Source of the DNA: Ephemerocybe angulata
Taxonomy: Eukaryota > Basidiomycota > Agaricomycetes > Agaricales > Psathyrellaceae
DNA: 64,000 nt
Assembly: GCA_013368325.1 (NCBI GenBank)
Contig: JAACJK010000006.1
Span: forward strand, 372,001-436,000
Direction of reading: 5' to 3'
The stretch's first letter is position 1. Each line of letters opens with the position of its first letter. Shown in pieces: positions 17,779 to 36,967 of the stretch. The translations under genes and the position numbers were made by a program. A model generated the notes under the pieces. The model did no database searches and was not told the DNA's origin. It worked only from the letters and a program-made list of their open reading frames with translations.

Positions 17779-18698
17779 AGATGGAGAATCTCCCGCTTAG
17801 GGCTCGCCAAACAGACAGCAAACTGGTTGTCGAATCGCGAGAGTTCGATAGGTGCGTTCACCCTCCTTTGCCCCAGCCATATCGAAGTAAGTATTACCCA
17901 CTCCTACTGGCTGGCATCACTCCATTATAATATTCAGCTGCTCAACCGAGTCCGGCGCTGCCCGCGGACGGGGGTATTACTCCTCTGGGCCTCTTGATGC
18001 ACGCGGCAGTGCCGGGTGGAAGAAAGGCGCCAGCGTCGGCCTTACGGCTCTCGGTGCTGGGGTTACCGCGGGATACAGCTTCATGCCCCTCTTCGCGAGC
18101 AAGACTGCGGCGACTACCGCTACCGTTGAACAGGCCACCCCAGCGACTCTCGAATGCCGATGAAGGGTACGATTTGGAGACGCGGGCCGGTCACTCACAC
18201 ACACACTGCTGCTATTACTGGGGGGATTGCGGCTACCTATGTCTATCTATCCTTTCATTGTTGTCATTGGGAAGCACTAACTTCTCACCTACTATGGCTC
18301 AAGATCATCCCGGCTTATGTCATGAACAAAGACCAGGCTGCTGCTCAGCCAGTAGCACGTCGAGGCTTCTTCGACGATGAGGACGTGGAACTCGAGGCAC
18401 GCGCCGCACGCCCTGTGGCTACTGCACTCAAGGGCTACGAGCTCGTCCGTGCGGCACCACTCGTCGCCAACGCTGCTGTGACCTGGAAGTCCTGGGCCGC
18501 GCCTGTCGGTGCGTTTGTGGCTGCGGGCACCGGTCTAGGACTTGGGGCTGAGGCTGTGATAAAGGTCCGGGACTTTCAAGTTAGCGAGCTCGCAGTTGAT
18601 GCCCTGGGTCTCGAGAATTCGATGATCTGGGCCTTCGGGATCTGGAGGGCTTTTTGAAGTGTTACTCTGGGGAGCTCGAGGTTGACGAGCTTGATTGA
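17779..18698 (+). pseudogene. Decayed member (A) of the secreted modular precursor family
   Basis: Pieces in different frames resemble the intact precursor genes. A first piece from about 17779 contains VVESREFDR, then an intron with gtaagt at 17887. Around 17992-18150 a module reads LDAR followed by GWKKGASVGLTALGAG and ending MPLFASK, like the GGAGLATAIAPLF modules of gene C. Around 18300-18600 comes an ELEAR spacer and a Gly/Ala hydrophobic module ending GTGLGLGAEA. Near the 3' end, one frame (18609-18698) reads SREFDD, then GELEVDELD and TGA, the family's acidic tail, but the upstream module is in another frame. At least two frameshifts are therefore needed. I find no convincing signal peptide or shared leader. 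It is probably a dead paralogue; sequence errors are an alternative explanation. Confidence 0.6.
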
Positions 18699-19568
18699 TT
18701 TGTGGTTGAGTGTATGCATTCCATTGTATGGGTCGTTGTGCTTCATGGGATTTTGCAATGTTGCACTGGTTCTTGGCGCTTCATGGCTATGTGATTTTGA
18801 TGAGGGTGGAGTTGAAGGCCTCGGCAACGAGGAGCGCCTTTGCACTTGGCTCCAAGTTTCTGGTTCTATTCTGCGACGGGCTCGGCGGTTGCACCCTTCC
18901 TTGGTTGGGAGTCGACCAGGAAACCCGCTGGACACCTTCGACTCCTGACTAAGTGTCCGATGCAGTGGCGCATGATACTCACCGTCTCCAAACAACAGAG
19001 AATTTTTCGTAACGTCCCAGTTGACTTCTCTTCTTCATCATTAACTGTAGTCTGACTGTAGTATTCAGAACATATAGGGAGACGGGCGACTAAAGATATT
19101 GATGAAGCCGTTTCTGATATCTTTATGCAATCAGTGATCTGTCCATGGTCCGTCAATCTTTGCCAGACTCAGCTAGAGGGGAGTGTGGGCTGGTGGTTAC
19201 ATTCCATCCGGCCTTTACCTATGGATGGCCGATATTTCTTTGATGACTCTTGTGATTGTACTCTAGACGCCCTACTTCTATCACATTCTATCAACGTTCT
19301 GGCATAAGGGTTCATGCCAACCAACTTCTTCTTCTTTTCTCAGTCTACCAGGAGCCTTCGGACTAATACATACCAAGTTCCGTGTATCATGGCGTTAAAC
19401 TGATTTGAGCAGGGGTAAGCCTGTGGACAATGATTTTGTTACGACATAGCAATTGACAGGGCACGCAACTCATTCAACTCGGGAAGGCGGTGGACCGCTA
19501 AGCCCGCTGCCAAGCTGCCAAGTTCGAGCTCAGCTAAAATGGGTCAGCGCCCAATGAGCCTGCCAGGG
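18699..19568. other. Intergenic; source of duplicated flank near 26.5-27.0 kb
   Basis: No gene seen. About 18775-18985 is repeated at about 26535-26745, and about 19290-19560 is repeated at about 26747-27015. The intervening roughly 300 bp is missing from the second copy. This sequence therefore belongs to the duplicated B-C block. Confidence 0.7.
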
Positions 19569-19617
19569 TATATATACAGGGCACCAAATGCCTTTGTTTC
19601 TTCAGCTGGTCTCACCC
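19569..19617 (+). promoter_or_regulatory. Core promoter of precursor B: TATA box plus shared start-site motif
   Basis: TATATATA starts at 19569. The motif TTCTTCAGCTGGTCTCACCC lies at 19598-19617, 29 bp further on, where transcription would be expected to begin. The start codon is 142 nt after the motif begins. The same arrangement precedes B', C and D. Confidence 0.75.
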
Positions 19618-19739
19618 TCCCAATCCTACTACTACAGAACATCTGCGTTGACCGCAACCTCCTCACTCTCCACCCAATCCAATCAATCAACCTATCACCC
19701 ACCTTCTCATTAACCAACCCACCCCTCTCTATAATCAAA

Positions 19740-20792
19740 ATGGTCCACATCTCTACCGCTACCGTCGTCGTCGCCGCCGCGCTCGCCGCTGCCCCTGCGT
19801 TCGCCGCACCCATCGCCACCGAGCAGGTCGAAGCCCGGGCGCCTAAGGGCGGACTCAGGCGCGCCGGCCGGGCAGCCGGCTCCGCCCTCAACCACGCAGG
19901 CAACATTGCCGGCATCGTCGGAGCACTCCAGGGCCGCGACGTTGAGGAGCTCGACGCTCGCGCGCCCAAGGGTGGATTCAGGCGGGCAGGACGCGCCGCC
20001 AACGGCGCTCTCAACCACGCAGGGAACATCGCTGGCATCGTCGGAGCCGTTCAAGGCCTCCGCCAGCGCGAGGTCTCCGACGAGATCGAGGCTCGTTCCC
20101 CCAAGGGAGGCTTCAGGCGTGCGGGGCGGGCAGCAGGTTCCGCCCTCAACCACGCAGGCAACATCGCCGGCATCGTCGGAGCACTCCAGGGCCGCGACGT
20201 TGAGGAGCTCGACGCTCGTGCACCCAAGGGTGGATTCAGGCGGGCAGGGCGCGCCGCCAATGGCGCTCTCAACCACGCAGGGAACATCGCTGGCATCGTC
20301 GGAGCCGTTCAAGGCCTCCGCCAGCGCGAGGTCTCCGACGAGATCGAGGCTCGTTCCCCCAAGGGAGGCTTCAGGCGTGCGGGGCGGGCAGCAGGTTCCG
20401 CCCTCAACCACGCAGGCAACATCGCGGGCATCGTCGGAGCACTCCAGGGCCGTGATGTTGAGGAGCTCAACGCTCGTGCACCCAAGGGCGGATTCAGGCG
20501 GGCAGGCCACATCGCCAATGGCGCTCTCAACCACGCAGGCAACATTGCCGGTATTGTCAGCACCGTTCAGGGATTCAGACAGCGGGACCTCGAGACCGAG
20601 GAACTCGAGGCCCGTCGCAGGCTCGCACCCATCCGACGAATCCCCGGAGGTCGCCCATCCCTTCGCCGCCCACGCCGTGTTGCGCCCGCCCCCGTCAGTG
20701 AGCGGGACCTTGAGGAGGAGATTGATATGCGTGAGATCGATGACATGGAGGAATTCTTTGAACGGGAGTTTGACATCGATGAGCTTGACTAG
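19740..20792 (+). CDS. Secreted repeat precursor B (six cationic Gly/Ala modules)
   Basis: A single uninterrupted exon encodes 350 residues. Residues 1-23 form a clear secretion signal (MVHISTATVVVAAALAAAP, then AFAAP), followed by IATEQVEAR. Next come six modules of 41, 45, 41, 45, 41 and 46 residues. Each starts A/S-P-K-G-G-F/L-R-R-A-G, continues with a Gly/Ala/Asn stretch (ALNHAGNIAGIV) and ends with an acidic spacer closing in Ala-Arg (VEELDAR, SDEIEAR). The last module runs into EARRR and a proline/arginine-rich segment, then a very acidic tail ending FDIDELD. The layout resembles fungal multi-peptide precursors cut in the secretory pathway: a short cationic-hydrophobic peptide set between acidic spacers. 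The Ala-Arg junctions are monobasic, so Kex2 cutting at each one is an inference. No known domain is recognised. It shares leader and tail with B' (27187). Confidence 0.85.
   Translation: MVHISTATVVVAAALAAAPAFAAPIATEQVEARAPKGGLRRAGRAAGSALNHAGNIAGIVGALQGRDVEELDARAPKGGFRRAGRAANGALNHAGNIAGIVGAVQGLRQREVSDEIEARSPKGGFRRAGRAAGSALNHAGNIAGIVGALQGRDVEELDARAPKGGFRRAGRAANGALNHAGNIAGIVGAVQGLRQREVSDEIEARSPKGGFRRAGRAAGSALNHAGNIAGIVGALQGRDVEELNARAPKGGFRRAGHIANGALNHAGNIAGIVSTVQGFRQRDLETEELEARRRLAPIRRIPGGRPSLRRPRRVAPAPVSERDLEEEIDMREIDDMEEFFEREFDIDELD
19839..20615 (+). repeat. Three tandem 258-bp repeats inside precursor B
   Basis: Double modules start at 19839, 20097 and 20355, each 123 + 135 bp; the last half-unit is 138 bp. 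Copies 2 and 3 differ at only a few positions over 258 bp. The A-type half-modules (41 residues) are almost identical to each other, as are the B-type halves (45 residues), so the array grew as two-module units. Confidence 0.95.
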
Positions 20793-21891
20793 ATATGCGG
20801 ACCTATAATATTAGGTATAATTTAAGCTGTATTTATCTATTACTAGTCTATAGGTGCAATGCATTAGCCTGTTCTCGAAAACCCCGTTGTCAGCCACCCG
20901 GCGGCTCTTTAGGCGCCTATGATCATTGTTCTCTTAAAACGGTATAAAGGAGTCGACTGAGATGGCTAGCATAGAAAGAATGGACTGGAACCCAAATGGC
21001 GACCATAAGGCATAGGGTCGAATGAGTAAACCGATGCACTTAGTGAAGCTTCGACCGAACATAGTAGCGGATGTCGCAGACGTAAACCTCGAGTTGCGGA
21101 GTGCCCACTGTTTCGGACATCAAACTTCTCATATCAGTCCGGACACTGCAGAATGTTACAAGGATGACAAAGGTTTTATTGGACGTTTACATAGCTAACG
21201 TCACAAACACCAGCTTCGGGACAGCGTACGGACCCGAAATGCTGGCATCTGAGTACTCAGTGCTCTGCCAGGCTGTTGGCAAGCGTCAACGATCGCCGGT
21301 GAAACCCGAATGCCCGTGTGCCCAACCAAGACTGTTGGATCCAATTTTTCAGTCGCCTAGGATGCAGATGGACTCATGATGAAAGTATACAGGCTGCCTT
21401 GATATGATAAGGTAAGTTGCTAATTCTTCACCTACTATACATATCGCATATATTTCCGGACCCTAGAAAGAGCGCCCAGCTCTGATTCGTGCTTACTACG
21501 CCGCAAGCATTCAATTTTCGCGTATCCCGGACTTAGATAGGGATGGTATCGATCACCAAGTTCACTTGAGGCTGATCTTGGGCTGATCGGAGATCATGGC
21601 ATTGCTGCGGCGCGGGCGCTTGGACAGCCCCGTCGGCGTTATCGCCATGTATCCTCGCCTACTACTGGCCTACTACTACGCATATTGAACGATGAGCACG
21701 CATGATACTTAGCAAATATCAAAGCTATATTTTCAGCCCAACAGTCACTGCTGCAATCTCGCATGTGGAACAATCACCTTGGAACCGGTTCGATACCCGT
21801 GAGCCCCGTCACTTCTCAACGCATACCTGTCATGTACAGCATGCACAGACAAGTAATTCCCAAATCTCTTGGTATGCTGCAAGTCCTTGAG
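20793..21891. other. Intergenic between precursors B and C
   Basis: No gene supported; an open frame at 21101-21379 lacks recognisable features. A 30-bp sequence at 21445-21474 recurs exactly at 23532-23561. The stretch from about 20860 to 22340 is what is missing between B' and C' in the duplicate block. Confidence 0.5.
21445..21474. repeat. 30-bp exact direct repeat, left copy
   Basis: Begins cgcatatatttccggaccct and ends agaaagagcg. The identical sequence is at 23532-23561. The two copies bracket precursor gene C. Confidence 0.9.
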
Positions 21892-21939
21892 TATAAAAGC
21901 AGGCATCTGAGGTGTATGGTTCTTCAGCTGGTCTCACCC
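21892..21939 (+). promoter_or_regulatory. Core promoter of precursor C
   Basis: TATAAAA at 21892-21898 and the shared motif TTCTTCAGCTGGTCTCACCC at 21920-21939, 28 bp downstream. The start codon follows 145 nt after the motif begins, as in the paralogues. Confidence 0.75.
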
Positions 21940-22064
21940 CCAATACTCCAACTTCCCAAGGATTACCTTCGGAGCACACTCTACGTTGACCGTAGATTTA
22001 CTTCAACCTCCCCTTTCTCACCCTCACTCCACTGTCTCCTATAAACCTCACAAATCTTGCCAAT

Positions 22065-23101
22065 ATGGTCCAAATCTCTACTGCTGCTGTTATAGCTGCC
22101 GCCATTATTGCCCCCTCGATCGCTGCTCCCATCGCGCAACTGTCTGAAGAATTCGAGGCACGCGCTCGCCCTCCGCATCCTGGGCACCTGCAGAGGGTCA
22201 ACGGCTTTGCGCCTGGCCATGGACCCGCTGCGTGGATTAAACCAGCAGTCATCGCTGGTGGAGCTGCGCTTGGTATTGGCCTTGGGTACGTTCTCACGTC
22301 CTCCGTTCGATCGTTAGTCTCGAAATAACTAACAATATATTGTATCTCTATAGTGCTGGTGCCGCCGCTAAAGGAAAGCGTGAGCTCAGCATTGAAGATG
22401 AAGTCGCTTCTCGCGAGTTTCAGGATAAGCTCGAAGTTCGCGCAGGAGGTGCGGGACGGGGCAGAGCTGCATTAAACGCCTTCGGCGCTCTGAGTGGTGG
22501 TGCTGGCTTGGCGACTGCGTAAGTAGTATATAAAAGCTAAAATCGGGTGTCTAATCTGGAGCTGAAACTCTTCATAGCATCGCCCCTCTTTTCCAAAACA
22601 AGCGAAAGCGAGAGTTTGAAGAAACTGAGCTTTCAATTCGCGCAGGAGGCGCGGGACGAGGCAGGGCTGCCTTGCATGCCTTCGGTACCCTGACTGGTGG
22701 AGCTGGCCTTGCTACTGCGTACGTCAACTCTCTATGGGGACCCCGAAATGAGCTGCTCTGAAAGTTATCTTGATTTTTAGCATTGCCCCTCTCTTCAAAA
22801 GCAACCAACAGAAACGGTCGTTCGAAGAACTTGATCTCGAAGAGCGAAGCCCGGCTGTCAATTTCGCTGCGATGAGGAAGTGGGTCAAGCCAGCTGTGAT
22901 CGCTGGTGGAGGTGCTCTCGGGATTGGGCTTGGGTAAGATATATGGGCGATGCTTTCATGGTTTAACCATAACTAATGTCACGTCTTAGGGCCGGTGCAG
23001 CTGCCAAGAGCAGGCGAGAGTTTGATGAAATTGATGCCCGTGATTTTGAAGACTTCTTGGACTATTATTCGAGGGAATTCGAGGTCGACGAGCTTGACTA
23101 G
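22065..23101 (+). CDS. Secreted modular precursor C (five phase-2 exons)
   Basis: Exons 22065-22285, 22354-22518, 22578-22718, 22781-22933 and 22990-23101 join to 263 residues. Every intron is phase 2. Exon 1 holds the secretion signal (MVQISTAAVIAAAIIAPSIA, then AP), an EEFEAR spacer and a module ending WIKPAVIAGGAALGIGLG. Exons 2 and 3 each hold an acidic spacer (SIEDEVASREF; FEETELSIR) and a near-identical module, AGGAGRGRAAL followed by GGAGLATA. Exon 4 starts with APLFKSNQQKR, then an acidic spacer and WVKPAVIAGGGALGIGLG, a second version of the exon 1 module. Exon 5 gives KSRREFDEIDAR and the tail EFEVDELD. Dibasic sites (KR, KRKR, RR) sit at the spacer borders, as expected for Kex2-type processing. 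The hydrophobic Gly/Ala helices could be membrane-active, but this is not shown. No known domain is recognised. A 5'-truncated copy lies at 27.7-28.5 kb. Confidence 0.85.
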
Positions 23102-23398
23102 ACTCCTAGACTTAGTGTTAATGAGCAAAGTACAGTACAGCTCAAACGGTCAATGTCATATCAATTCGTATGATGCCCGAGCACACATCAATTGACGAGG
23201 ACCATCTGAAGCCTGAGGCTGGCTTGAAGCTTGAAAAGTTGCCTTGAAGGGACACAACTCAAGGGTATATCATCATCACATCTATCCTACACATACATAA
23301 GGCAATAAACACAGAAATCATCCAGATATAGCGAAAATCACAATCCATCCAACCATATGATCTACCCAATAAATAGAGACTGGAAATGATGTTCAAGC

Positions 23399-23491
23399 CG
23401 GCCCAGTGATCATCTTCAGATGCTCAAGCCCTTCTCCGCTCCGCACCAGCCCTTTAAACATCACATCCTTTAACAGAAAATCTATCAGAGA
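23399..23491 (-). pseudogene. Fragment of the 3' end of the DUF6699 gene
   Basis: This piece matches 28744-28836, the last about 30 codons of the minus-strand DUF6699 gene, with very few differences, then breaks off at aaaatctat. It shows that the C cassette here was copied together with the neighbouring end of that gene, so the C' neighbourhood retains the original junction. Confidence 0.85.
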
Positions 23492-23531
23492 TGGCCTTCA
23501 TCAAACAGTCTCCGCCTTCAAAGTAGACATA

Positions 23532-23561
23532 CGCATATATTTCCGGACCCTAGAAAGAGCG
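23532..23561. repeat. 30-bp exact direct repeat, right copy
   Basis: Identical to 21445-21474. It lies beyond the copied DUF6699 fragment. Confidence 0.9.
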
Positions 23562-25276
23562 GGTTCGGAATTGAGTAGTCTGAATGTTGCGATGGTTGCT
23601 AACGAGCGATTCTCGCTGTACGGTACCGGGAGGACAATGTCCCGTTTTTGAATCGAGATCGAGACGGCCTGTCTACAGGGATCATGGGGTGAGACCACCC
23701 CGTATTTTGGAGTACTTGAATTCCAGCATTTGAGCGCACAGTTAGCTTTTGTGCATTCAATTCGCCGGTATTCTGCAAAACGCGTTTGGGCGCTTAAGGC
23801 GGAATTCACGTCACCGAGCTAAATCAAGACTTTCCTCGAGTACGTCATAGATGTCTACTGTCACCTCCTCGCCCTCCACACTCCCTTTCCTGGTCTTATC
23901 TCGGCGCAGAGTGAGCCGACAGACTCGGACGTGTAGCGCACAAGTTGCCTCTTCTAGGAGTTCCGCCCTCGACTCAACTGGTCTCTAGACAGGGACCAGT
24001 CTGAATAGATACTCAGTCAGAAGAAATTTATGCTGTTAGCGTGCCGTATAATTTAACCCAAGAATATGTAGCAGGTCTCTTAATGTGCCGGAATCACGAG
24101 AGGGTTGTCAGTCTTTCTCGCCGAATGGATTATGGCATTACCAAATAGACATGAATTCCTCGACGTGGGAGCCAGGGAGTGCCACGATGGGTATCCAAGA
24201 CAGATATAGTATGTCAAATTAAACGTAGTAACGCCAAGCACCATATGACGCGACGAAATGGGATTGGTTTGTGTGTACGGAACTTGCGGGAGAGGGCATC
24301 ACACGATCCAGCCAGACCTTTGGCTATTCCGATTCTGTCACTTGGCAGTGTGACTCGCATTTCTCCCCACAGCCTCAGCCCTATCTTAACAGAAATAAGT
24401 GCTCCTGTGTGGCTATATCATGACAGAACACTCGGTGTTGTCGCCTAGGCGCCGGGGCGCCTATTTTCGTGCTCATGCGTTCCGTCCTTTGGAAGCGCGG
24501 GAAAGACAAAACACAAATGATGCGGGGCTCCACTACTAGCTTAAAATGCGGAATATGTCATCAGATGTTCTCGAGAACGATCTGGACGCACATACTCAGG
24601 GCAACGGGGCATGGCCGAATGTCTGCCATATATCCCGCCGGCCCCACGGCCCACGGAGACTCATGTATGGTTGGCTTACTTACCTCCCTGGACTGGTCAT
24701 ATTTTTGCCAGAAAAGCATACATATTGGAGCAGCGCGCATTGTGCGTGCGCCGCTGCACTTGCCGGCAAACTGCAGTGAACCCCCGACGTCAATCAAAAG
24801 CAACGAAATTCAATGCGAACACTTAGCTATCGATCCTCGGTTGCGACACCCTGCGAGTGTGAATGTGAGCGAGATAAACGGAGCGGAATGATAAGGTGTT
24901 CCTCACACCTAATTTGGGTCTCCCGCCGATGCCTGCTGTCCAAAGGCTGCGAGAAGCAGCCAGTCAGTACGTACGGCTGCGGGTGGAAAACAGAAACGAG
25001 ACTAACCAATTCAGGAGTAAGCATAGAGTCGAAGCCTTTGGTGTGGCAGTTGAATCGCCTCTGTTTGCCGTTCCGCAATAGAAATGCGTCCGGCGAAAGG
25101 GTATGGGATCTGTAACGTGAATGTCAGGACGAAAAGAAACGGGGAGAACCTGCGGATGCAAAGTATGGATAGATCGACGCCCGGCGAGCGAGTCGATCCA
25201 GGAAAGTGGAATATGAGATGTAAATTGACGACGTACCATTAATGTCGAGGGCTTGCGGTAAGGTGGCTCGTTGACA

Positions 25277-25388
25277 GTTGACTTGAAGACGACAGAATGC
25301 GTCCCGCAAGTGGCCGTGATTTGGTGTTCGTTGACTTGAAGACGGACGACAGAATGTGTTCCCGCGAGTGGCCATGATTTGGTGTTCG
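25277..25388. repeat. Tandem duplication, unit about 53-59 bp
   Basis: Two adjacent copies (25277-25329 and 25330-25388) begin ttgacttgaagacg and end gatttggtgttcg. The second carries a small insertion (gacg). Confidence 0.85.
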
Positions 25389-25532
25389 GTGGATGCCAGT
25401 CACGGATGGTACTAGGTGCTCGTCACTTTGAAGCCTTTGGAAGCCCCGAATTCCAATCCTGCGATATACGTGAGCCCGGCAGCAGAATGTGGTGGGGAGC
25501 CTGAAAGGACCGAGCTTACTCGACATCTTGAA

Positions 25533-25760
25533 CCGTAGTGAACCGAATTCGTCTAGTATCTCCCCCGCGAGCTTGTGTGATTCCGAAGACGTACGAGAGG
25601 ACTGGGAGGAGGAGGACGATGAGGAGCTTGAATCCGAGTCGTAGGGGTTGAAGTCGTAGTCATCTTCGTCGGAATCGGAATGCAGGCCAAACGTCGAGGC
25701 TCCCCGGCGATATCTAGTCGGACGCACAGGATTGAGTCCATTATCACTATGAGATTCTCT
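25533..25760 (-). pseudogene. Inverted fragment of GLE1 exon 1 and its upstream flank
   Basis: Read on the minus strand this reproduces GLE1 exon 1 from just upstream of its start codon: ASTFGLHSDSDEDDYDF, a Ser run, then KLAGEILDEFGSL, ending at the point where the real exon meets its donor. The start region is altered and the rest of the gene is absent. Two or three amino acids differ from 15104-15297. It is a broken copy. Confidence 0.92.
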
Positions 25761-25795
25761 GAATCGCACGTACCCTCGAACCCGAGACGTAGTCG

Positions 25796-26260
25796 GTGAC
25801 CTGGGATCATTTCGGTCTCGAGAAGATCAAGAAACGTCTGATCGAGTACTTGGCTGTCGTCCGCCTGAAGGAAATGAACATGGAGAAGGAGAAGTTGAAG
25901 GAGGAGAGAGGGAGCAACAGGAAGTATTGGCCATCCAAGCCTCCAAACCCGATGCCAAGACGGGCGGGGATGGGAAGGAACTCGTACTCTACGAGAAGGA
26001 GAAGAGGCAACAGTCCCTCAAGATCCCTGCTTCAGTACCTTCAGCTCCCAGAAGAGGAAAGGGCATTCGCGGTCCTATCCTGCTTTTCGTCGGTCCCCCT
26101 GGTACTGGTAAAACTTCTCTTGGGCAGAGCATAGCCAAATTTCTGGGTCGGCCTTTCCAACGTATCTCTCTTGATGGTGTACGTGACGAGGCTGAGATTA
26201 GGGGTCATAGACGAACTTATGTCGCCAGTGGTCCTGGGCTCATTGTCCAAGCAGGGCAGC
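25796..26260 (+). pseudogene. Fragment of mitochondrial LON protease (ATPase domain)
   Basis: One frame from 25796 reads [18 protein letters not shown], the conserved segment before the LON AAA+ module. A shift to another frame near 25925 gives [20 protein letters not shown] with the Walker A motif, then [20 protein letters not shown] and [10 protein letters not shown]. The fragment then ends, lacking Walker B, the rest of the ATPase and the Ser-Lys protease domain. No full LON gene is in the window, so the source lies elsewhere. In the intact family this is an ATP-dependent protease of the mitochondrial matrix. Confidence 0.9.
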
Positions 26261-26287
26261 CCGAATCGCATCGTGAACGTCTTAGCG

Positions 26288-26460
26288 AAATGAGCGCCGG
26301 ACCGGTGATAGTGCAAGCCACTATTTGGCCTCTAAGCATCTGCCAAACAAAGGCGAGCGACAGCTCGACTCTCTTCGTCTCCAATCTCCCGTACACCGCA
26401 ACGAGCGTCGACCTCGAGACCCTCTTCTCGGGCGTCGGCTACGCCTCCTTCGCCCTGAAG
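26288..26460 (+). pseudogene. Fragment of NOP4 leader and RRM1
   Basis: The start resembles the NOP4 upstream sequence at about 9265-9345 (ccggaccggtgat, gccaaaca). Exon 1 and intron 1 are then missing, and exon 2 of NOP4 follows ([20 protein letters not shown]) with an internal in-frame deletion of about 63 nt before GVGY. It is a rearranged remnant, fused in frame behind the LON fragment. Confidence 0.88.
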
Positions 26461-27019
26461 CGCCAAGCTCGGAGCCCGCACGGCCAGACGCCTCAAGCCG
26501 GCCCGAGCAAGGGGCTTGTACAGTACTTGGTCCTTGGAGTTGGTGCTCATGGCGGTGTGATTTTGATGAGGGTGGAGTGGAAGGCCTCGGCAACGAGGAG
26601 CGCCTTTGCACTTGGCGCCAAGTTTCTGGTTCTATTCTGTGACGGGGCTCGGCGGATTGCACCCTTCCTCGGTTGGGAGTCGACCGGGAAACCCGCTGGA
26701 CACCTTCGACTCCTGAGTCCTGACTAAGTGTCCGATGCAGTGGCCAACGTCCTGGCATAAGGATTCATGCCAACCAACTTCTTCTTCTTTTACGAGTCTA
26801 CCGGGAGCCTTCAAAGTTCAGACCAATACATACCAAGTTCCGTGTTACTGTATCATGATGGCGTTGAACTGAATTGATCAGGGAAGCCTGTGGACAATGA
26901 TTTTGTAACGACATAACAGTTGACGTGGCACACAACTCATTCTCGGGAAGCCGGTGGACCGCGAAACCCACTGCTTTCGAGCTCGGCTAAAATAGATCAT
27001 GGCAACGAGCCTGCCAGGG

Positions 27020-27068
27020 TATATATACAGGGCACCAAATGCCTTTGTTTCTTCAGCTGGTCTCACCC
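27020..27068 (+). promoter_or_regulatory. Core promoter of precursor B'
   Basis: TATATATA at about 27020 and TTCTTCAGCTGGTCTCACCC at 27049-27068, 29 bp downstream. The start codon follows 138 nt after the motif begins. The leader is nearly identical to that of B. Confidence 0.75.
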
Positions 27069-27186
27069 TCCCAAACCTACTACCACAGGACATCTGCGTT
27101 GACCGCAACCTCCTCACTCTCCACCCAATCCAATCAATCTATCACCCACCTTCTCATTAACCAACCCACCCGTCTCTATAATCAAA

Positions 27187-27624
27187 ATGGTCCACATCTC
27201 TACCGCTACTGTCGTCGTCGCCGCCGCGCTCGCCGCCGCCCCTGCGTTCGCCGCTCCCATCGCCATCGAGCAGGTCGAAGCACGGACGCCTAAGGGCGGA
27301 CTCAAGAAAGCCCTCTCCGCCCTCCACCATACAAGCAACGTTGCCGGCGCCGTCGGAACACTCCAGGGCCGCGCCGTTGAGGAGCTCGACGCCCGTGCAC
27401 CCGCCAAGGGACGCGCCCCTGCACCCAAACGCCCCCCTCCATCCGTTCTCAAGCAGGTTGGAGGCGTCGCCCATGTCGCTCTCAAAAACGCAGATAACAT
27501 CGCTACCATCGTTACAGCTTTTCACCCGCCAGCGCAAGCGCGCGAGGTCTCCGACGATCTCGAGGCTCGTTCCCTCCTGGAGAAATTTTTCAAACGGGAG
27601 TTTGACATCGATGAGCTTGACTAG
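27187..27624 (+). CDS. Secreted precursor B', short paralogue of B
   Basis: One exon, 145 residues. The secretion signal and first spacer nearly match B (EQVEAR). Only two modules remain and both have diverged: TPKGGLKKALSALHHTSNVAG ends at VEELDAR, and a second, proline-rich module (APAKGRAPAPKRPPP) continues into ADNIATIVTAF and ends SDDLEAR. The last 20 residues (FFKREFDIDELD) match B. Promoter and leader are conserved, so it looks expressible. Compared with B the array has contracted, or never expanded, and the central peptides changed faster than signal and tail. Confidence 0.82.
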   Translation: MVHISTATVVVAAALAAAPAFAAPIAIEQVEARTPKGGLKKALSALHHTSNVAGAVGTLQGRAVEELDARAPAKGRAPAPKRPPPSVLKQVGGVAHVALKNADNIATIVTAFHPPAQAREVSDDLEARSLLEKFFKREFDIDELD

Positions 27625-27703
27625 ATATGCGGACCTATGATATTAGGTACACTTTAGTCTTTAAGCTGTATTTATAGTCCATAGGTGCAATGTATCTCTA
27701 TAG

Positions 27704-28452
27704 TGCTGGTGCCGCCGCTAAAGGAAAGCGTGAGCTCAGCATTGAAGATGAACTCGCTTCTCGCGAGTTTGAGGATGAGCTCGAAGTTCGCGCAGGAGGT
27801 GCGGGACGGGGCAGAGCTGCATTGCACGCCTTCGGCGCTCTGAGTGGTGGTGCTGGTTTGGCGACTGCGTAAGTATTACTGTATATAAAAGCTAGAATCC
27901 GGTGTCTAATCTGGAGCTGAAACTCTTCATAGCATTTCCCCTCTTTTCCAAAAGAAGCAGAAGGGAGAGTTTGAAGAAACTGAGCTTTCAATTCGCGCAG
28001 GGGGCGCGGGCAGGCCTGCCTTGAATGCCTTCGGTACCCTGACTGGTGGAGCTGGCCTTGCTACTGCGTACGTCAACTCTCTATTATGAAGAGTCCAAAA
28101 TGAGCTGCTCTGAGAGTTATCTTGACTTTTAGCATTGCCCCTCTCTTCAAAAGCAACCAACAGAAACGGTCGTTCGAAGCACTTGATCTCGAAGAGCGAA
28201 GCCCGGCCGTCAATTTTGCTGCGATGAGGAAGTGGGTCAAGCCAGCTGTGATCGCTGGTGGAGGTGCTCTCGGGATTGGGCCTGTGTAAGATATACAAAC
28301 GATGCTTTCATGGTTTATCCATACTGATGTCACATCTTAGGGCCGGTGCAGCTGCCAAGAGCAGGCGAGAGTTTGATGAAATTGACGCCCGTGATCTTGA
28401 AGACTTCTTGGACTATTATTCGAGGGAATTCGAGGTCGACGAGCTTGACTAG
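27704..28452 (+). pseudogene. 5'-truncated copy C' of precursor C
   Basis: Exons equivalent to exons 2-5 of C are present with intact splice sites: 27704-27868, 27933-28067, 28133-28285 and 28341-28452. They keep phase 2 and end in the same tail (EFEVDELD). Exon 1 with the secretion signal, the promoter and the motif are missing, because the sequence joins straight to the 3' flank of B'. In exon 3 the dibasic KRKR site has become KKQKG, and six bases are lost in the GRGRAA stretch. With no start it should be silent, unless read-through from B' is spliced into it. Confidence 0.85.
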
Positions 28453-28743
28453 ACTCCTAGACTTAGTGTTAATGAGCAAAGTACAGTACAGCTCAAACGG
28501 TCAATGTCATATCAATTCGTATGATGCCCGAGCACACATCAATTGACGAGGACCATCTGAAGCCTGAGGCTGGCTTGAAGCTTGAAAAGTTGCCTTGAAG
28601 GGACACAACTCAAGGGTATATCATCATCACATCTATCCTACACATACATAAGGCAATAAACACAGAAATCATCCAGATGTAGCGAAAATCACAATCCATC
28701 CAACCATATGATCTACCCAATAAATAGAGACTGGAAATGATGT

Positions 28744-29778
28744 TCAAGCCGGCCCAGTGACCATCTTCAGATGCTCAAGCCCTTCTCCGCTCCGCACCAG
28801 CCCCTTAAACATCACATCCTTTAACAGAAAATCTACCTTCTTCACCCCCGCACTCCTAAGCGCCATCTCTGCCTGAGGGCCCGAAGACCTACACCTCCTA
28901 ACATACGCCCGTGAGACCTCCAACTCCTCCTTTGAGCTCAATCCTCCCCAATCGTACTGCGTGATGCCCTTGTGCAGCTCCCGATGAATTGTCGCCAAGA
29001 TATCCCCTACGAGAATGGGCGGTAAGTTCGCGGTGCCCCTCATCGCGTACGCCGGATCCATGGGGTTGAAGACGAGCTCGATAGGGAATTGGGGGAGCTT
29101 GTCGCAGGTGATGGTAAGCTTGTGCAAGTGGGGGTACGTTGCGACCTGGCCGAGCTCATCGGGCGCCAACAACGCCGTCTCTCCACGTGGGCCCACAATC
29201 CGCATGGGCGCGAAGGTCGGGATCGAGAGGTTGAATATAAAGTCATTGCGGAACGCCTCTCCGTTTAGCCATGGGTGGATGTGCATCTGCGACTCCGCCT
29301 CGTGTCTGCCAAGGCTCAGGAATCGGTTGAACCAAGGCGAGTGTGAGTTGGGGCTCCAGTTCGTATTAATGGGCGCTGTCGCGGGAGGAGGCTGCCCGTA
29401 GTAGGCTTGGTTGGGAAAGAATGGGGGGTCTGACTGGCCGAAGGAGTTCGAGCGGAAGTGGCCTGGATTGGGGCCGCCAGGGGAGAGGAGGCCCGTTGGG
29501 TTGACCCCATGCCAGGAGTTCTGTCTGGGTCGGCGGTAGCCCGAGTCCCAGAGTGGATCGGCTCCCCCAGTCATGGTAGGGAACAGGAGACCACCCGGAG
29601 GGAGATGTGAGTAGCCATGGTGCGGAGAGGGGGGAAGGGATGCGGGATTCGAGTAGGGGGATGCGCCTTGAAGATTCACATTTGGGACGAACGGCGAGCC
29701 GTATGGCGATTGTCCATTCTGGTAGTATGCAGTTTGGTAGAAGTTTGCTTCCGGGACGTAAACGTATGGCTGAGACAT
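28744..29778 (-). CDS. DUF6699-family protein
   Basis: Intronless, 344 residues. The first 140 residues are low complexity (Pro, Gly, Ser, Asn, Tyr). The rest resembles the basidiomycete DUF6699 domain: IHPWLNGEAFRNDFIFNLS, a middle segment THLHKLTI-like region (PHLHKLTITCDKLPQFPIEL), and ILVGDILATIHRELHKGIT followed by SRAYVRRCR. The domain's function is unknown; it is widespread in mushroom genomes, often in many copies. No signal peptide or membrane segment is visible. The last 30 codons are copied at 23399-23491. The assignment is by recognition of the domain pattern. Confidence 0.75.
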   Translation of the reverse strand: MSQPYVYVPEANFYQTAYYQNGQSPYGSPFVPNVNLQGASPYSNPASLPPSPHHGYSHLPPGGLLFPTMTGGADPLWDSGYRRPRQNSWHGVNPTGLLSPGGPNPGHFRSNSFGQSDPPFFPNQAYYGQPPPATAPINTNWSPNSHSPWFNRFLSLGRHEAESQMHIHPWLNGEAFRNDFIFNLSIPTFAPMRIVGPRGETALLAPDELGQVATYPHLHKLTITCDKLPQFPIELVFNPMDPAYAMRGTANLPPILVGDILATIHRELHKGITQYDWGGLSSKEELEVSRAYVRRCRSSGPQAEMALRSAGVKKVDFLLKDVMFKGLVRSGEGLEHLKMVTGPA

Positions 29779-30662
29779 GATGAGAGGGTAGAGAAGGATT
29801 GAAGGGCAGGCTTATATATCGGCTCCCCTGAGTACGGGCGCTTATTCGAGGGCCCAGCTGCTGCGGCCTCGGTGGATAGCTGTACGAGGCAGAGGGTTGC
29901 GCATACGTCAGTGTTCCATTTCTGCTTAGAACTGCCTTCCCTACTTTTGTGTGAGCGAGCTCTTGTTTGCTTGGACGATTCAGAATGACAGCGTTTAACC
30001 AATCGATCCTGTGAGGGCGGAAGGCTGTGCGTGACGCGACCTTGGGCGTCTCTAGGGAGCGATCTCTGACCCGCAGCTCGAGAGTGGCTGGTGCTTCCTC
30101 GAGACTTCTTTTGGCTGTGCGAGAAGGAGCTAATCAAGCCCCGATTAGGTGTTGAGGTTCGGAAGAAGCTTGCTAGCGGTGACTCACTTGTTTTTGTGGA
30201 CGTGGCGGAACAAGCGCTGATAACAGACTCAATAGCCCTGGATTACACTGTGTCTGCTTGACGGGGGGAAGAAGAAGAACTGAACACTCAGGGTTCAGCG
30301 CTCGTCTTTATATCCCGCCAAATCGGTCAGGTGCACCCTCAACCCTAGATAGCTCCGGACCGAGTGGTGAGCGGCTTTGAAGCTAGTACGAAGGCAAAAG
30401 GTCAAGATGGTAATAGAACGAGCAACTGGATTTGGTACTGAACCTATATGTTGGCGGAGCAACGGAAGGGTGTTCAAGAATTGAGATCCCAAGAATCAAG
30501 CCCTTTCTCTGTCTGGCAGATACAGTGTGGAGGTAAACAATACAGGTTGGCGCTCATGGCTGGGCGCCGTTGCCATACTGACGTAGATGGGCGCTCGGGA
30601 GTACTAAATTAAAAGCAGAACTATGGCATCACAACCACAATGCCCTGCAACCACAATTATAA
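29779..30662. other. Intergenic between DUF6699 gene and CAX4
   Basis: Holds the upstream region of the DUF6699 gene and the 3' flank of CAX4. An open frame at 29676-30137 (minus) is mostly over the leader and has no recognisable domain. Confidence 0.5.
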
Positions 30663-31623
30663 TTACCCTGTCTTCACCTTGTGCCTTTTATCCCATTCTT
30701 GCTTCCATCGTATCCAATCTCCTTCTCTGCCGCCGTCGGCCCAGACATCCCAGCCATCGCGTAGCTGCACCCACGTCGAGACAGGGTTTGAAATTAACCA
30801 GGCTTTGAATTGTCCGAGGAGGGACTGTGGATACCAAGTTGGAAGGAGTTGGGCGAAGGTGTAGACAAATGCTCCCAGTGACGAGCCGATAACGAGTCCC
30901 CAGAATATTTGGTGGAGATTATGATATCCAAGATAGTATCTGGGATGGATGTGCATGTGAGTATCGATACATGTCGTACATTTTGGGCAGCGCACCTCGA
31001 ATATGCGACAAGTCCAGTCCAGAGTAAGAGGCCTGAGTATACACACAGTCTCCAAATGACGTCGACTGCCTTGCTCCCCGTTGAGGAGAAACGATGGCGG
31101 AAGTACAAGTGCAACATCAGGAAAGTACAGAAGTATGCCATGTATTGACTATGCGACGATGGGAAGCCATATCCACTTCCGATGCTGTCTAGCGTATTGT
31201 CAGTCAACGTAGAAGTGTCTCAGTTCGTGCATATTTCCTACCGATTGGACGTTCCTGTTTTATGAGGTGCTTGATTACGAGGTTCAAAGCTTCACCTGCA
31301 AACTGACCGGCCCACATCGCTAGGATAAGGTATTCACGAGACATCACAGCCAACGCGGCGTATGATGCCTGAGCATAATATAAGTTCCAGAGTCCCGTTG
31401 TGGTGAATGTGGAGGAACGGACCATCAGGAGTATCGGCGTCAAAGTAATGACCGCCAAAAGGAAAGAGAATAATGATGAATCATCGTCTGCATAACGTGA
31501 AAGTTCCTATTAGTTGAAGTCAATCGCTGACCGAACTGCAGTGTCGGGGAGGTTTGGCTCACATAGAACGTGTGTCAGATCTAGAGACGCTCTAGGTCCT
31601 TCAAACTTGGGGTGTAAGACCAT
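30663..31623 (-). CDS. CAX4: Dolichyldiphosphatase (CAX4/DOLPP1 type, PAP2 superfamily)
   Basis: Four exons on the minus strand: 31623-31563, 31487-31242, 31188-30996 and 30939-30663. They join to 258 residues, near the yeast length of 239. Several membrane spans are visible (FSFLLAVITLTPILLM, YLILAMWAGQFAG, LLLWTGLVAYS, FWGLVIGSSLGAFVY). The three phosphatase motifs of the PAP2 family are present: KHLIKQERP, GFPSSHSQ, and SRYYLGYHNLHQ with the catalytic His. In this family the enzyme removes a phosphate from dolichyl diphosphate on the lumenal side of the ER, recycling the lipid carrier for N-glycosylation. The start was chosen because MVLHPKFEG leads into the conserved LDLTHVLYDDDS across intron 1. 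It is divergent from the TFIIIC gene across about 340 bp. Confidence 0.92.
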
Positions 31624-31963
31624 CGCGGAGGGAAGGAAGGAAACCGTGGCCGCGTCTGGCCGCGTCCATGCAGTCGTGGCATCATTCTCGTGAGAAAAGC
31701 AAATATTTTGATGGCCGGTCGACTCAGGGCACCGGGCGCCAAACTGGGTTTTTGCCATACCACCACGACGCGCCGAACTTCACTTGGGCGTAGCTGCAGC
31801 ATTCTGCCATAGGTGCCCGTCGAAGCTCATCACTAAGATAGAGGAGAGAGAGGAGCTTCGGATATGCTCAACTGTGAGTTCTTTGAACAGATGGAGCTGC
31901 CTAAGCTCATTGCAACTTGAATGTCAAGGACCCAACGAGTTCTTTCACCGTGATACACCCAGC
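31624..31963. promoter_or_regulatory. Divergent promoter region between CAX4 and the TFIIIC90-like gene
   Basis: 340 bp separate the two start codons. I see no clear TATA box; both genes are housekeeping in type. Confidence 0.5.
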
Positions 31964-34900
31964 ATGAACGTTTATACGATTCTCTCCGTCCCCACGGTCA
32001 TCTCATTTCCATCTCCTCGATGCTTAAGGTGGTCCTCTGGAGGCCAACTCGTTTTCATAACGAAATCAGCCGTATACATTTTGGTAGCTCAGAATGTCTT
32101 CAATGCACCGGCTGAATATCACTCACGTCCGTCCTTCAGACACCCGACCATGGTATCAATTTCGACAACGAGTCTCTCATCAAATCTTCGATACCCAAAG
32201 ATCTTCTGGGGAGCCAGCAACCTGTTGCATGGTTCAGAACGATGGTTCAAGACGACAAACTCATGGACGGAACTCGATGGCCAGACCTTTCGCAAGGTGC
32301 CCATTACAGCGGTACTCCGCAATGAACACAAATTGACCTTGTTAACAATACAGCTTGGGGTGCCGTGTCTTTGGGCTCAATTGACGCGTCTATCATGGGA
32401 GCGGAGTGTTCCCCGAGCACAGTGAGCAATGACGGGCAGTGAGTTCCCCGGGGTTCTTTTAGGTATCCCCACTCTGACTTTTGACTTCTACCAGATCTGT
32501 TGTGGCCGTCATGACATCCAACATGGACATATCACTGTGGAAGGCAGATAAGAACTATCTGAAGGGAGAATGGAAGAGGGTAGGTCTCTAATCGTCCGGT
32601 GGGTTTCGGATAACTTCATTACGCCTTCCAGATTGTCGACGTAACTCCTATGCTTCTCGCCCATTATGGTGCTCTTGGAAGTGCCGACCCCTCGCTGGCT
32701 TCTATACTGCGATCCCAGTCAACATGTAAGAACGGCGTTGTGATGTCCTTGTGCGAAATCTCATCGCGGGAAGTCAGGCATGTGCTGGACGTCTCAACCT
32801 GACTTTGGCATGGTACCACATCCACATATCGATGGGTCCTTGCTTGTGGTTGGAAACAGGGGAGGCTCTTTGACGTTCATCAGGTATGGGCGCGCACGCC
32901 ATGACGCAGTATAATTCTGACTCTGTCGCTAGATATGGAAACAGCGATCTCACTCGCATTCTGGAAACAGTGCAGGTTACGTCTGGGTGGGTAACACAGC
33001 TGGGCGCATCGGACTGGACAATGATCCCCGACAAAAATTGTTTGTGTTTACCTCTACCATCGCGTAAGCACTTATCAACATCGCGCCAGGCACCAGTTAC
33101 CTCGCATTTGGTAAAGGGGATGGTGCGGTAGGCCTCGTAAAGCTCGAGCAAACCGCGAATCCCCAGGAGACTCAATTTGCCTTCACGACGAAATACGCAG
33201 TGGCCCTTTCGACAGAATTACTCCAGGAACCTATCATACCTTCTGACAATGCGGGGATAACAGCAATAGAGTGGATAGCCACCACTCAAGGAGCAGTATG
33301 TCCTATTTTACGCTTTCCTGCATATTTTGCTGACCTGACATCGTAGGTGATTCTGATCGTTTGTAAGCCAGGTGTCGTCTATCTCTGGTCCCCTCCCGAG
33401 AGCCCAGGAATGGCCTGGACGGGGGTTAGGTCCTTGGACTTTGAACTCCAGAAAATATCAAGCGCAGCCTCTATGTATCATCCGGCATCTGGAGTCTCAT
33501 ATGCTGGCACAGACGACACCCTGACATTGTCGCTATTCGATGGTTCCATTCATGTCATCCATCAAGTGACTAGCAACCCTCAGTGGACGCCACCTACTGT
33601 CGATACTTCTTGGACATCCAGCAAACTCTCTCGAACATGCCGATCTATTTTCAACAAAGTCGAAAGTGGGGCTATTGATGACAAAGTCATGAACAGGATT
33701 AGCGGGTTTTGCAGTTATGACAACAGTTCTTCGTTTGTTTGGGCCCACGAGTGAGTTTGCGCATTCACACCTCCGTCAATGCCGCGGCTGAGCAGCCCGT
33801 TAGGTCATCAGTCCCATCCGACTTCAGCTATAAGCATGATGCAAAACATAGCAGTACTATCGTAGCAGCTCGTTTGGCGGAACCGATCGACGACAGTGAA
33901 TTCTTACGACGACTAGAAGCAACTCTTTCTCTCAAATGCAGCGGTAGGTAAGACTTCACTCGCCTATTTTCAATTCTCACCCCCCATAACAGTCCGCCGT
34001 TCGATCTCTTTAAATGAGCTGCGACCCATCTTCTTCGGGCTGCATAATCAACGGCGTTTGGAATCTGTTCACGATCGCTTGCTGGGAGTCTTGCAGAAAG
34101 CAACAGAAGACTACTCTCTAAGCGTAACTGTACCCGTTCTGGAGGTGCCCATGACCGATGAAATCAGGGATAGTTTTAGAGAAAGCCTGACTCTACATCT
34201 CTTCGGCTGGGCCGAAACCTCGTCACTACGAATGCGCCTCGCGTTGGCCGACTTCATGTGGAAGTTCTCGATGACGGAGAAACACAGGACGGAGTGTGGG
34301 CAAGTCGCCCAGGGAATTCTAAACGCCATCTCGCAACGAACACTTCGAACGCTCATTCGCCACGTCTCTTCTGCTGTGAGCGGTCTCACGGGTGAGTTTC
34401 CCATTGTTTTGCATCGTCCTGGTTGAACCCTGATATCGTTGTCATCTTTAGCCGACGATATACCATTCATCATGAGGTTGATTGTGCAGTCGCTCCTTCC
34501 TGGGTGTCCACCAGATCTCTCTGGAGAAGGGCAGGCCCTGTCGCTTTCCACACAGCATCTCATTCCTCGCGAAGATGGCCCCACGCCAACGAATAACGAC
34601 TTCACGGAGCAGTGCCCTGCGTGTCATGTCGCAATCCCCCTCGAGGACATCAATTCTGCCGTCTGTCCCAACGGTCATCACTGGTCAAGATGTTCGATCA
34701 CTACATTCATACTATCGACTCCCTGGGTCCGAACATGTGTTGGGTGCAGCCGCAAAGCGTTGCTGCCACCGTCGGTGTCGCGTGCAAACACCGGTGCGGT
34801 GCAGCTCCCACCCTTGGCGAAGGGATGGGTTGTCACAGAGCTCTTGGAAACCGTACATCAGTGTCTGTTCTGTAACAACACGTTCGTCAGTCTCCTGTAG
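31964..34900 (+). CDS. TFIIIC 90-kDa-type subunit (GTF3C4-like)
   Basis: Twelve exons (31964-32083, 32140-32296, 32354-32438, 32495-32579, 32632-32725, 32778-32883, 32933-33039, 33090-33295, 33347-33750, 33828-33943, 33993-34391, 34452-34900) join exactly in frame to 775 residues. The N-terminus matches the TFIIIC delta/beta-propeller pattern (PSPRCLRWSSGGQLVFITK, then TPDHG). Later blades read VVAVMTSNMDISLWK and GWVTQLGASDW. The C-terminus has the paired zinc-binding motif of this family: CPACHVAIP, CPNGHHWSRC, CVGC, and a last CLFCNN. TFIIIC recognises the internal promoter (A and B boxes) of tRNA genes and recruits TFIIIB for RNA polymerase III. The exact orthologue name between fungi is uncertain, so no symbol is given. 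Confidence 0.82.
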
Positions 34901-36009
34901 ACACGAGGTTAGGTGCGTAGTACATCGTTGACATTGTATCATACTTGTCTTGAGCATTTGAGCAGGTTCGACCCTAAAGAGGAATGATAAAGATAAAGCT
35001 GGATCAGTGCTTCTCATGTGGCCGGTCTCAACCATGAGTGTCCTTCGAGTTATATGGGGCTTGAGAACTACGCAAAGCACGTTGAATACCGTTCTTCTGA
35101 TCGCTGTATCTATCGGGCGAGCGTGGCGTAATGCTGAATGGGCGCTAATCAAGTTGGATGACTACACCTCTCACTTATACCAGCTATCATTGATTCACGC
35201 CACAGACTGAGACAAACATGGAAATGAGTTAGCCGATCTCGCTTCGTCGGCATGGGGTTGCTTTTTCCAGTGCAAAGATAGATAATTATGTTGAAGAAGA
35301 ACTTCGAAGATACGATCATGGATTGTCTTTCCTTACTCCTACCCCCCACAATCTATCCAGCTTGACAGCTATCATTGATATTTCACAGCCTTGTTGTCGC
35401 CGGACTTCAGTAATCAGTTCACATGTGTTAAACCTCAACCTCTTCGCATGGTGGTTGACTTGCTTCTGCACACTGGTAAAGCATTGGTATTCTAGTGCAG
35501 AGCAGTAGAGTTGCAATTACACCGTCACGAGCCTGGGTCTTGTGATGATGGGAGATCGGCCGCCTGTCCATTGTTTTGTTCCGACGATGATACCATCAAA
35601 CTGAGGTGCCGATAAGCGCCAGTGGGTTGAAGATATCTCCTCACTGAAATAGCGATACCAACTTATCGATATAGAATTCGTTACACGGTTTGACCTCAAC
35701 TAACGGTTGCTTATCCGGCCCAAGGACTGGTAATTTGAACCGAACTACACGACTTAGTTGCCGCCGAATTGGCATCAAATCAACGGACCAGGCGACTTCG
35801 CGATCTTGGGACAAACGTTGGAGACTTCTTACAACCACGGGGACGCAATGGGCCCGAAAAGTCAACATCAACCGCCCAATACTGATCCCCGGGTACGGCC
35901 CATCGGGCAGCCCCCTAGCGCCCACCACATGCTATCAAAGATCTCTTCTCTTCACCAATTTGGCAGCCTGAGCGCTCGAAGCCGCGAGTGAAGGGAAGCT
36001 AGGAAATGC
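34901..36009. other. Intergenic, nothing recognised
   Basis: Short open frames only, the longest 95 codons on the minus strand at 35641-35928, without recognisable domain. The right end is the upstream region of precursor D. Confidence 0.5.
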
Positions 36010-36057
36010 ATAAATACTGGGGCCTCTCCACTTCATATTCTTCAGCCGGTCTCACCC
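36010..36057 (+). promoter_or_regulatory. Core promoter of precursor D
   Basis: A TATA-like ataaata at about 36010 and the motif TTCTTCAGCCGGTCTCACCC at 36038-36057, 28 bp downstream. It differs at one base from B and C. The start codon is 141 nt after the motif begins. Confidence 0.75.
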
Positions 36058-36178
36058 CACCACTTCTTCTACTTTGCCACACTTCGAAGCGTTGCACGCA
36101 CCTCGTCAATTCTCATCCACTTCATTTATCAAACAAGCCCCACCCCACCTCTTCTATAAGCTAAACCCTTCATACACA

Positions 36179-36967
36179 ATGGTTTACGTTTCCAAGCCCC
36201 TTGTCGTTGCCGCCCTTGTTATCACCCCCAGCATTGCTGCCCCCCTTACTCAGGTTTCTGAGGAGCAATTCGAGGCTCGGGATCAGTACGAGGATCTCGA
36301 CGCCAGAGGGAAGTTTGCGGTCGCCAGGCGTGTCCTGCACCACACAAACACAGCGGCAGGTCACATAGGAACCGCTACGAGGTCAGTGCTACCCTCCCAC
36401 AGCTTGATTCTAAAGCTGATGAACCCCTAGCCTCTGGTCGATGATCAAGGGACAACGTGACATCGACTCAGACCTTGAAGCTCGTGGAAAAGGCTGGGAG
36501 CTCGGCAAGAAGATGTTTGCCTCTGGTGCAGCCGCTGCAGCCTTTGGCACTCTCATCGCACCTATCTTCAAGAGGCCTGCTAAGCCTGTGTATAACCGGG
36601 ACTTCGAGGAGGAGATGTATGAACGCGACTTCGAAGATGATGTCTTTGAGCGCGACTTCGATGACGAGGAGCTTGAACTTCTCGCACGCTACCTGGATGA
36701 AGCGGCAGCGCTGGAGGGGCGCTCCCCCAATTACGGCGCAAGCCTCCTGAAGATTGGAACCTTCCTTGGAAGGAAAGCGAAGTTCCTCGTTCCGGCTGCT
36801 GGCGCCGCTGGCTTTGGCCTTGGGTGAGTCTTTCGGTCGTTTACGCATCAGATAGTAGCGACTAACATCTTTTAAACAGTGTTGCTGCCAAGCTCCGATC
36901 GCGGGATTTCGATGAATTCGACATCTACGAACGTGACATGGAAAGCTCTCTCGACGAGATGGATTAA
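36179..36967 (+). CDS. Secreted modular precursor D
   Basis: Exons 36179-36381, 36431-36823 and 36880-36967 join to 227 residues; both introns are phase 2, as in C. The N-terminus is a secretion signal (MVYVSKPLVVAALVITPSIA, then AP) followed by SEEQFEAR and DLDAR spacers. A first module is cationic (GKFAVARRVLHHTNTAAGHI). After a spacer ending DLEAR comes GKGWELGKKMFASGAAAAAF with a hydrophobic stretch. Then follow three similar acidic units (NRDFEEEMYERDFEDDVFER type) and a last module GTFLGRKAKFLVPAAGAAGF. The tail is acidic and ends SLDEMD instead of DELD. It lies about 7.5 kb from the rest of the cluster, separated by ordinary genes, yet keeps the same promoter layout. Function unknown. 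Confidence 0.82.

Follow-up and report, generated by a model that had tools for sequence, protein, structure and literature searches.

The 64,000-nucleotide window of Ephemerocybe angulata DNA analysed here carries four genes, labelled B, C, B' and D, whose products read as secreted-type proteins built of short cationic modules and acidic spacers. The question raised by this locus is whether such genes make long proteins or strings of peptides, and how the peptides would be cut out and their genes controlled. The answer that we lean towards is a dispersed, co-regulated family of secreted precursors, cut at single arginines, trimmed of X-Pro dipeptides and yielding mostly membrane-active peptides. 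The family itself is real, coherent and expanding; its junction grammar is unusual, and the start-site element that its members share is striking. Peptide release from its precursors is predicted and likely; membrane activity of the released peptides is predicted and plausible.

All four gene models were upheld on re-examination of the translations and exons. The gene B array had a period of 258 bp in 2.7 copies with 95% matches (tandem-repeat analysis), and the four introns of gene C, all GT..AG, each lay within one of its hydrophobic modules. Protein D was identical to a public E. angulata record (P0005; D9611_009128), and gene C was intact in a second E. angulata record (P0030; 99% across the whole length). 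Leaders such as MVHISTATVVVAAALAAAPAFA were signal-peptide-like on reading by eye. None of the four proteins reached the cut-off of any Pfam family.

The family set comprised 42 collected proteins. Junctions and charges were counted in 36 of these, leaving out near-duplicates and fragments (P0017, P0008, E_L050, E_L048b, E_L073, and P0021). Charge alternation exceeded chance: 339 acidic linker segments were observed, against a mean of 73.6 in 500 residue shuffles (standard deviation, sd, 7.5; maximum 96). In total, 55 of 58 representative cores were net positive; some of the long ones contain more than one module, and one gene C core was counted with the Lys-bearing linker preceding it. The C-terminus was [LM]D in 37 of the 42 proteins and DE[LM]D in 32, and the five proteins without [LM]D include fragments or incompletely seen ends. 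Gene models and charge alternation together uphold the original prediction that B, C, B' and D share one modular design, and on their sequences these genes are confirmed as putative secreted-type precursors.

An exact 17-base element, TTCAGCYGGTCTCACCC, was found upstream of B, C, B', and D; it was absent from the original prediction. Within the window it occurred at two or fewer mismatches only at these four sites (shuffles, 0.01). In the 58.7 Mb genome, 14 copies were found at one mismatch or fewer, compared with three in a reversed control. All 14 lay 78-142 bases upstream of a family-type leader, followed in 13 by recognisable precursor sequence; at C55 the leader alone was seen. With two mismatches allowed, the genome held 33 sites and the reversed control 21; beyond the 14 closer copies and three known ones, the remaining 16 may be chance. 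In an alignment of 17 copies, three of which carry two mismatches, the TATA-like box started 29-32 bases upstream in 16 and 35 bases upstream in one; by this distance, transcription probably starts at the element.

In six more distant members AGCYGGTCT(C) was retained at the equivalent position, and in five of these a TATA-like sequence stood at -35 to -41. Upstream of the core at the C220 gene, which holds six near-copies of SPIFGKIFRGAKRVVGGLFGR separated by acidic linkers, that pattern gave no TATA-like match. The ten-base core occurred 16 times in 179,916 bases of window and family loci, 15 times with both a TATA-like box and a family-type leader and once with neither; this sample was chosen around family genes, and the non-family genes in it are the sole control. 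Altogether, 25 genes on 13 contigs bore the element or its core (17 + 6 + 2). TATAA followed by AGCYGGTCTC at 30-42 bases gave 17 genomic sites and none in the reversed control, six being known family genes. The 11 further sites are candidate family genes: C38:843k, 860k, and 866k; C73:192k; C133:161k, 200k, and 221k; C189:247k; C196:422k; C117:299k; and C232:152k. The element also located precursor-type genes unlisted in the protein searches (C11:351k, on the contig of the window; C67; and C124) and one, at C114:396k, to which protein search gave only a weak match (E 0.055). Both the element and its linkage to the family are shown by computation.

Searching the modules against other proteomes, the check that the original prediction had proposed, found relatives in other Agaricales. 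Query B recovered three metagenome proteins with B-type and D-type modules in a single chain, a link between B and D. With a profile, 29 proteins were listed at E <= 0.1 (among the 7998 scored candidates, those sharing most words), with named relatives in Ephemerocybe, Candolleomyces, Agrocybe, Hebeloma, and Gymnopilus. Family matches in the E. angulata genome were spread over many contigs. These relatives, the junction statistics and the shared promoter element support the proposed plan: secreted-type precursors, many short cationic modules, and expansion and decay of members. Searches of open-licence papers listed none recognisable as describing the family, acidic-x-Arg mushroom precursors or the start-site element; relatives may be among the repeat precursors tabulated for C. 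cinerea.

Junctions were counted under two linker rules: a strict rule allowing no basic residue inside a linker (149 junctions) and a recount in which any basic string ends the linker (151 junctions). On the recount, linker-to-core junctions carried a single Arg in 132 cases, two or more basic residues in 15 (RK, RR or RRR; KR in none) and a single Lys in four. Two or more basic residues stood at 45 of 168 core-to-linker junctions; dibasic ends were commoner on cores than on linkers. Of the linker endings first proposed, DAR/EAR or KR/RR, the single-Arg kind therefore stands as the rule and KR drops out.

Ordinary Kex2 repeat proteins, cut at basic pairs, would account for part of this pattern; the product of B would then be a 43-residue repeat still holding its acidic linker. 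B does yield 10 KR/RR fragments, six of them alike, the core-to-linker junctions include the basic pairs just counted, and kexin-type genes are present in the E. angulata genome. The published criterion for Kex2-processed repeat proteins (KEPs) asks that KR/RR sites enclose three or more fragments that resemble one another (PMC6339444). In a simplified KR/RR screen, eight of the 42 family proteins passed and 34 failed; in the window B passed, and C, B', and D failed. The linker-to-core junctions argue against basic-pair cutting, and [KR]R occurred 23 times inside 52 cores compared with 21.0 in shuffles (sd 3.9), so dibasic sites are not kept out of cores. Moreover, X-Pro follows the linker Arg and not other Arg. 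Cuts after single Arg have been observed for mushroom precursors expressed in Pichia (PMC9769878). We regard cutting at basic pairs as an unlikely account of the family. The Kex2 repeat-precursor plan of the original prediction survives as a precursor with many short cationic modules, and only in part in its cutting sites.

On C114, four element-bearing precursor genes form a run, and one of them has a kexin-type P-domain gene some 3.3 kb away (C114:428,970 and C114:432,326). A dedicated protease at this locus is conceivable; so is chance proximity.

The residue two places after the cut (P2') was Pro in 96 of the 132 single-Arg linker-to-core junctions on the recount. Under the strict rule, Pro was at P2' in 95 of 149 junctions, at P1' in none, at P3' in four and at P4' in nine; after other arginines it was at P2' in 32 of 587. 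By source, P2' Pro occurred in 8 of 15 junctions from the window, 11 of 26 from the rest of the E. angulata genome and 76 of 108 from other genomes. The X-Pro dipeptide is a substrate removed by Ste13-type aminopeptidases (PMC6339444; PMC9769878). DPPIV-type genes are present in the E. angulata genome.

From these observations we infer the following sequence of events. The N-terminal signal would route each precursor into the secretory pathway, where acidic linkers would hold the cationic cores neutral and apart. An Arg-specific protease would cut at two kinds of site, behind the single Arg with which most linkers close ([D/E]-x-R) and behind the Arg or pair of basic residues closing each core; the X-Pro dipeptide newly exposed at the N-terminus of a core would then be stripped by a Ste13/DPP-IV-type peptidase. 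The products would be many cationic, helix-prone peptides, about 20-40 residues long. Most would probably be membrane-active, in defence or competition, while the Gly-rich ones of C would perhaps be membrane-inserting. The TATA box and AGCYGGTCTC start-site element would drive joint expression.

Several points weigh against single-Arg processing into membrane-active peptides. An acidic residue at -2 to -4 (133 of 149 junctions; Glu in 104) and Ala at P2 (109 of 149) were counted under the strict rule, which requires acidic and bars basic residues, so these counts are partly built in; its dibasic count of 0 of 149 is wholly built in, and the recount figures are used instead. The transcription start is placed by TATA distance. 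Compared with shuffles, gene D cores were modestly more amphipathic (z 1.63, 0.86, and 0.68) and gene C cores less so (z -1.97, -1.22, and -0.61). Two low-confidence structure models, both with a mean predicted local distance difference test (pLDDT) score near 43, neither show nor exclude a fold; the single-sequence model of B was helical. Synthetic peptides of other mushroom repeat precursors were reported to have no antibacterial activity (PMC9769878).

The amphipathic character first ascribed to the modules thus holds for B, partly for D and for many relatives, but not for C. Gene C cores are hydrophobic, Gly-rich and non-amphipathic, and the membrane-active reading is weaker for C because of this. 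A glycine zipper was considered and rejected, G-x3-G alone not being enriched (z 0.64); G-x6-G reached z 3.96 and small-x3-small z 6.35, and other small-small spacings were also up (z 2.05 to 4.31). Five WD40-type chains were matched by B in a phmmer search of the PDB (best E 1e-7, a designed repeat protein). This relationship was rejected as a periodicity artefact because the alignment tracks the 43-residue period but lacks the Trp-Asp motif, and because the low-confidence model is helical. Nothing in the PDB matched profile A2 or either of two single cores. P0011 exceeded the Clavanin cut-off in Pfam (23 vs 21 bits) and P0025 that of Rep_Org_C (44.2 vs 27); both were read as composition or repeat effects. 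The Pfam spider antimicrobial model matched only P0007, below cut-off (E 0.59), and none of the window genes.

The released peptides might instead be signals between hyphae or to other organisms, like alpha-pheromones, and not membrane-active. X-Pro of the Ste13 type marks alpha-pheromone precursors and occurs in other basidiomycete repeat precursors (PMC6339444; PMC9769878). The cores, however, are long (median 37 residues), strongly cationic and highly diverse within one genome, unlike a receptor-matched ligand, and a signalling role seems improbable. Least probable is that the proteins remain whole, as disordered secreted or hyphal-surface proteins whose charge blocks serve assembly, as in repellent-type coats: alternating charge blocks, the lack of a confident fold and the example of Ustilago Rep1, a precursor of Kex2 type with peptides that assemble into amyloid-like fibrils (PMC9769878), speak for it, but P2' Pro after the linker Arg is constant across unrelated cores, as expected from processing and not from charge alternation, and, indirectly, the strand-type moment of the cores is not raised.

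Within the window, 18773-18969, 19292-20100, 20746-20864, and 22341-23484 recurred in order at 26540-26744, 26745-27574, 27578-27695, and 27691-28835 (self-BLAST; 95% for the last pair). This ordered recurrence of blocks from 18773-23484 within 26540-28835 indicates that the region was produced by duplication. The B' and C' matches overlap by five bases at the lost leader-exon junction, where part of intron 1 adjoins the B' 3' region and the stretch expected to carry the leader exon has been lost. No leader begins the annotated product of C' (P0031), and codon comparison with C showed that C' lacks one Arg-ended core boundary. C and C' differed by a nonsynonymous rate (dN) of 0.034 and a synonymous rate (dS) of 0.060 over 187 codons. 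The 3' end of A diverges from a copy on contig C185, the last frame of which closes with a family-type tail. A and C' had been called decayed and truncated, respectively, and both descriptions stand; the absence of the promoter element from each fits their decay. Contig C185 was considered as the other haplotype and rejected: in 9.9 kb compared, matching to the window, at 81-88%, was confined to some 1.7 kb around A and B, with one further 84-base match outside this block. A paralogous copy of the A/B region is the preferred interpretation. Among 10 large window open reading frames, Pfam identified RRM, GLE1, AAA, and DUF6699 only, with no sign in those 10 of a modifying-enzyme cluster, the neighbour to be looked for beside a dikaritin-type RiPP precursor such as that of ustiloxin.

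Table 1. Coordinates of family genes, start-site elements and neighbouring features in the window.
Feature	Position	Strand	Description	Basis
Gene B	19740-20792	+	1 exon, 350 aa; leader, six B-type cationic modules, acidic linkers and tail	translation, tandem repeat, junction analysis
Gene B, first core	19839-19937	+
Gene B, first inter-core linker	19938-19961	+
C-terminal [LM]D/DE[LM]D end (example)	20778-20792	+
Gene C	exons 22065-22285, 22354-22518, 22578-22718, 22781-22933, 22990-23101	+	263 aa; four hydrophobic Gly/Ala-rich modules
Gene B'	27187-27624	+	145 aa; shortened, diverged B copy	translation, self-BLAST
Gene D	exons 36179-36381, 36431-36823, 36880-36968	+	227 aa; three cationic modules and acidic linkers
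C'	27691-28452	+	C copy without leader exon and promoter element	self-BLAST, exon reading, codon comparison
A	about 17779-18655	+	decayed family member without promoter element
Gene B TATA and element	19569..19617 (element 19601-19617)	+	exact 17-mer; TATA at -32/-30
Gene C TATA and element	21893..21939 (element 21923-21939)	+	exact 17-mer, TATA box
Gene B' TATA and element	27020..27068 (element 27052-27068)	+	exact 17-mer, TATA box
Gene D TATA and element	36011..36057 (element 36041-36057)	+	exact 17-mer, TATA box
RRM-domain frames	1-2726 and 9278-12038		2.8 kb direct duplication, 90% identity, one frame in each copy
AAA-type ATPase frame	25753-26727		part recurs inverted at 15018-15299 (86%), perhaps a gene fragment
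DUF6699-domain frame	28744-29811	-	adjoining frame
GLE1-domain frame	16370-17212	+	adjoining frame

We raise more tentatively the possibility that agarics independently evolved a venom-gland-style production of peptides. In this proposal, at least 25 co-regulated precursor-type genes of one genome would combine acidic-x-Arg monobasic cutting and X-Pro trimming with many different membrane-active peptides, and a conserved sequence at the 5' transcript end would govern the set. If the main reading is right, uncharacterised cationic peptides would number in the dozens in one agaric genome, and further precursor genes, too weakly similar at the protein level, could be located by a short promoter signature. 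It would also become testable which fungal protease cuts acidic-x-Arg and how start sites control a set of peptides dispersed over the genome.

Compared with known systems, the family resembles KEPs in its secreted-type precursors, its repeated units between basic sites, its lineage specificity and, for KEPs, a mostly unknown function (PMC6339444; PMC9769878). It differs from KEPs in its acidic linkers mostly ending in single Arg, its cationic, diverse cores and its low pass rate in the KR/RR screen. Two published screens for fungal multi-peptide precursors rest mainly on dibasic-site cutting (PMC6339444; PMC9769878), the latter adding a repeat finder, with inspection, for proteins shorter than 300 residues; screens of this kind would often overlook precursors whose linkers end in single Arg. 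Ascomycete alpha-pheromone precursors also carry repeated peptides, with X-Ala or X-Pro after the endoprotease site (PMC6339444), as did most single-Arg junctions here. Their sites are KR and their peptides near-identical, whereas the family cores are long, cationic and diverse.

Spider-venom linear-peptide precursors, like the family, hold several cationic peptides split by anionic linkers (PMC7889660). In precursors with the processing quadruplet motif (PQM) and its inverted form (iPQM), such as those of cupiennins and latarcins, short anionic linkers start after Arg, have an acidic residue close to either end and finish with Arg (PMC7889660). Anionic linkers likewise separate the cationic linear peptides of the family. 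The spider rule sets Arg at -1 and Glu at -2 to -4; in the family Asp often takes the place of Glu (Glu in 104 of 149, a count partly built into the linker rule). The rule as described in PMC7889660 has no X-Pro after the cut, and the family has it. Pfam showed no sequence relationship between the family and spider peptides. Ece1, likewise fungal, is a multi-peptide precursor that gives rise to a helical, membrane-active peptide; compared by description, it is cut at KR, unlike the single-Arg linkers of the family. As the candidalysin precursor, it is named among fungal precursors in PMC9769878.
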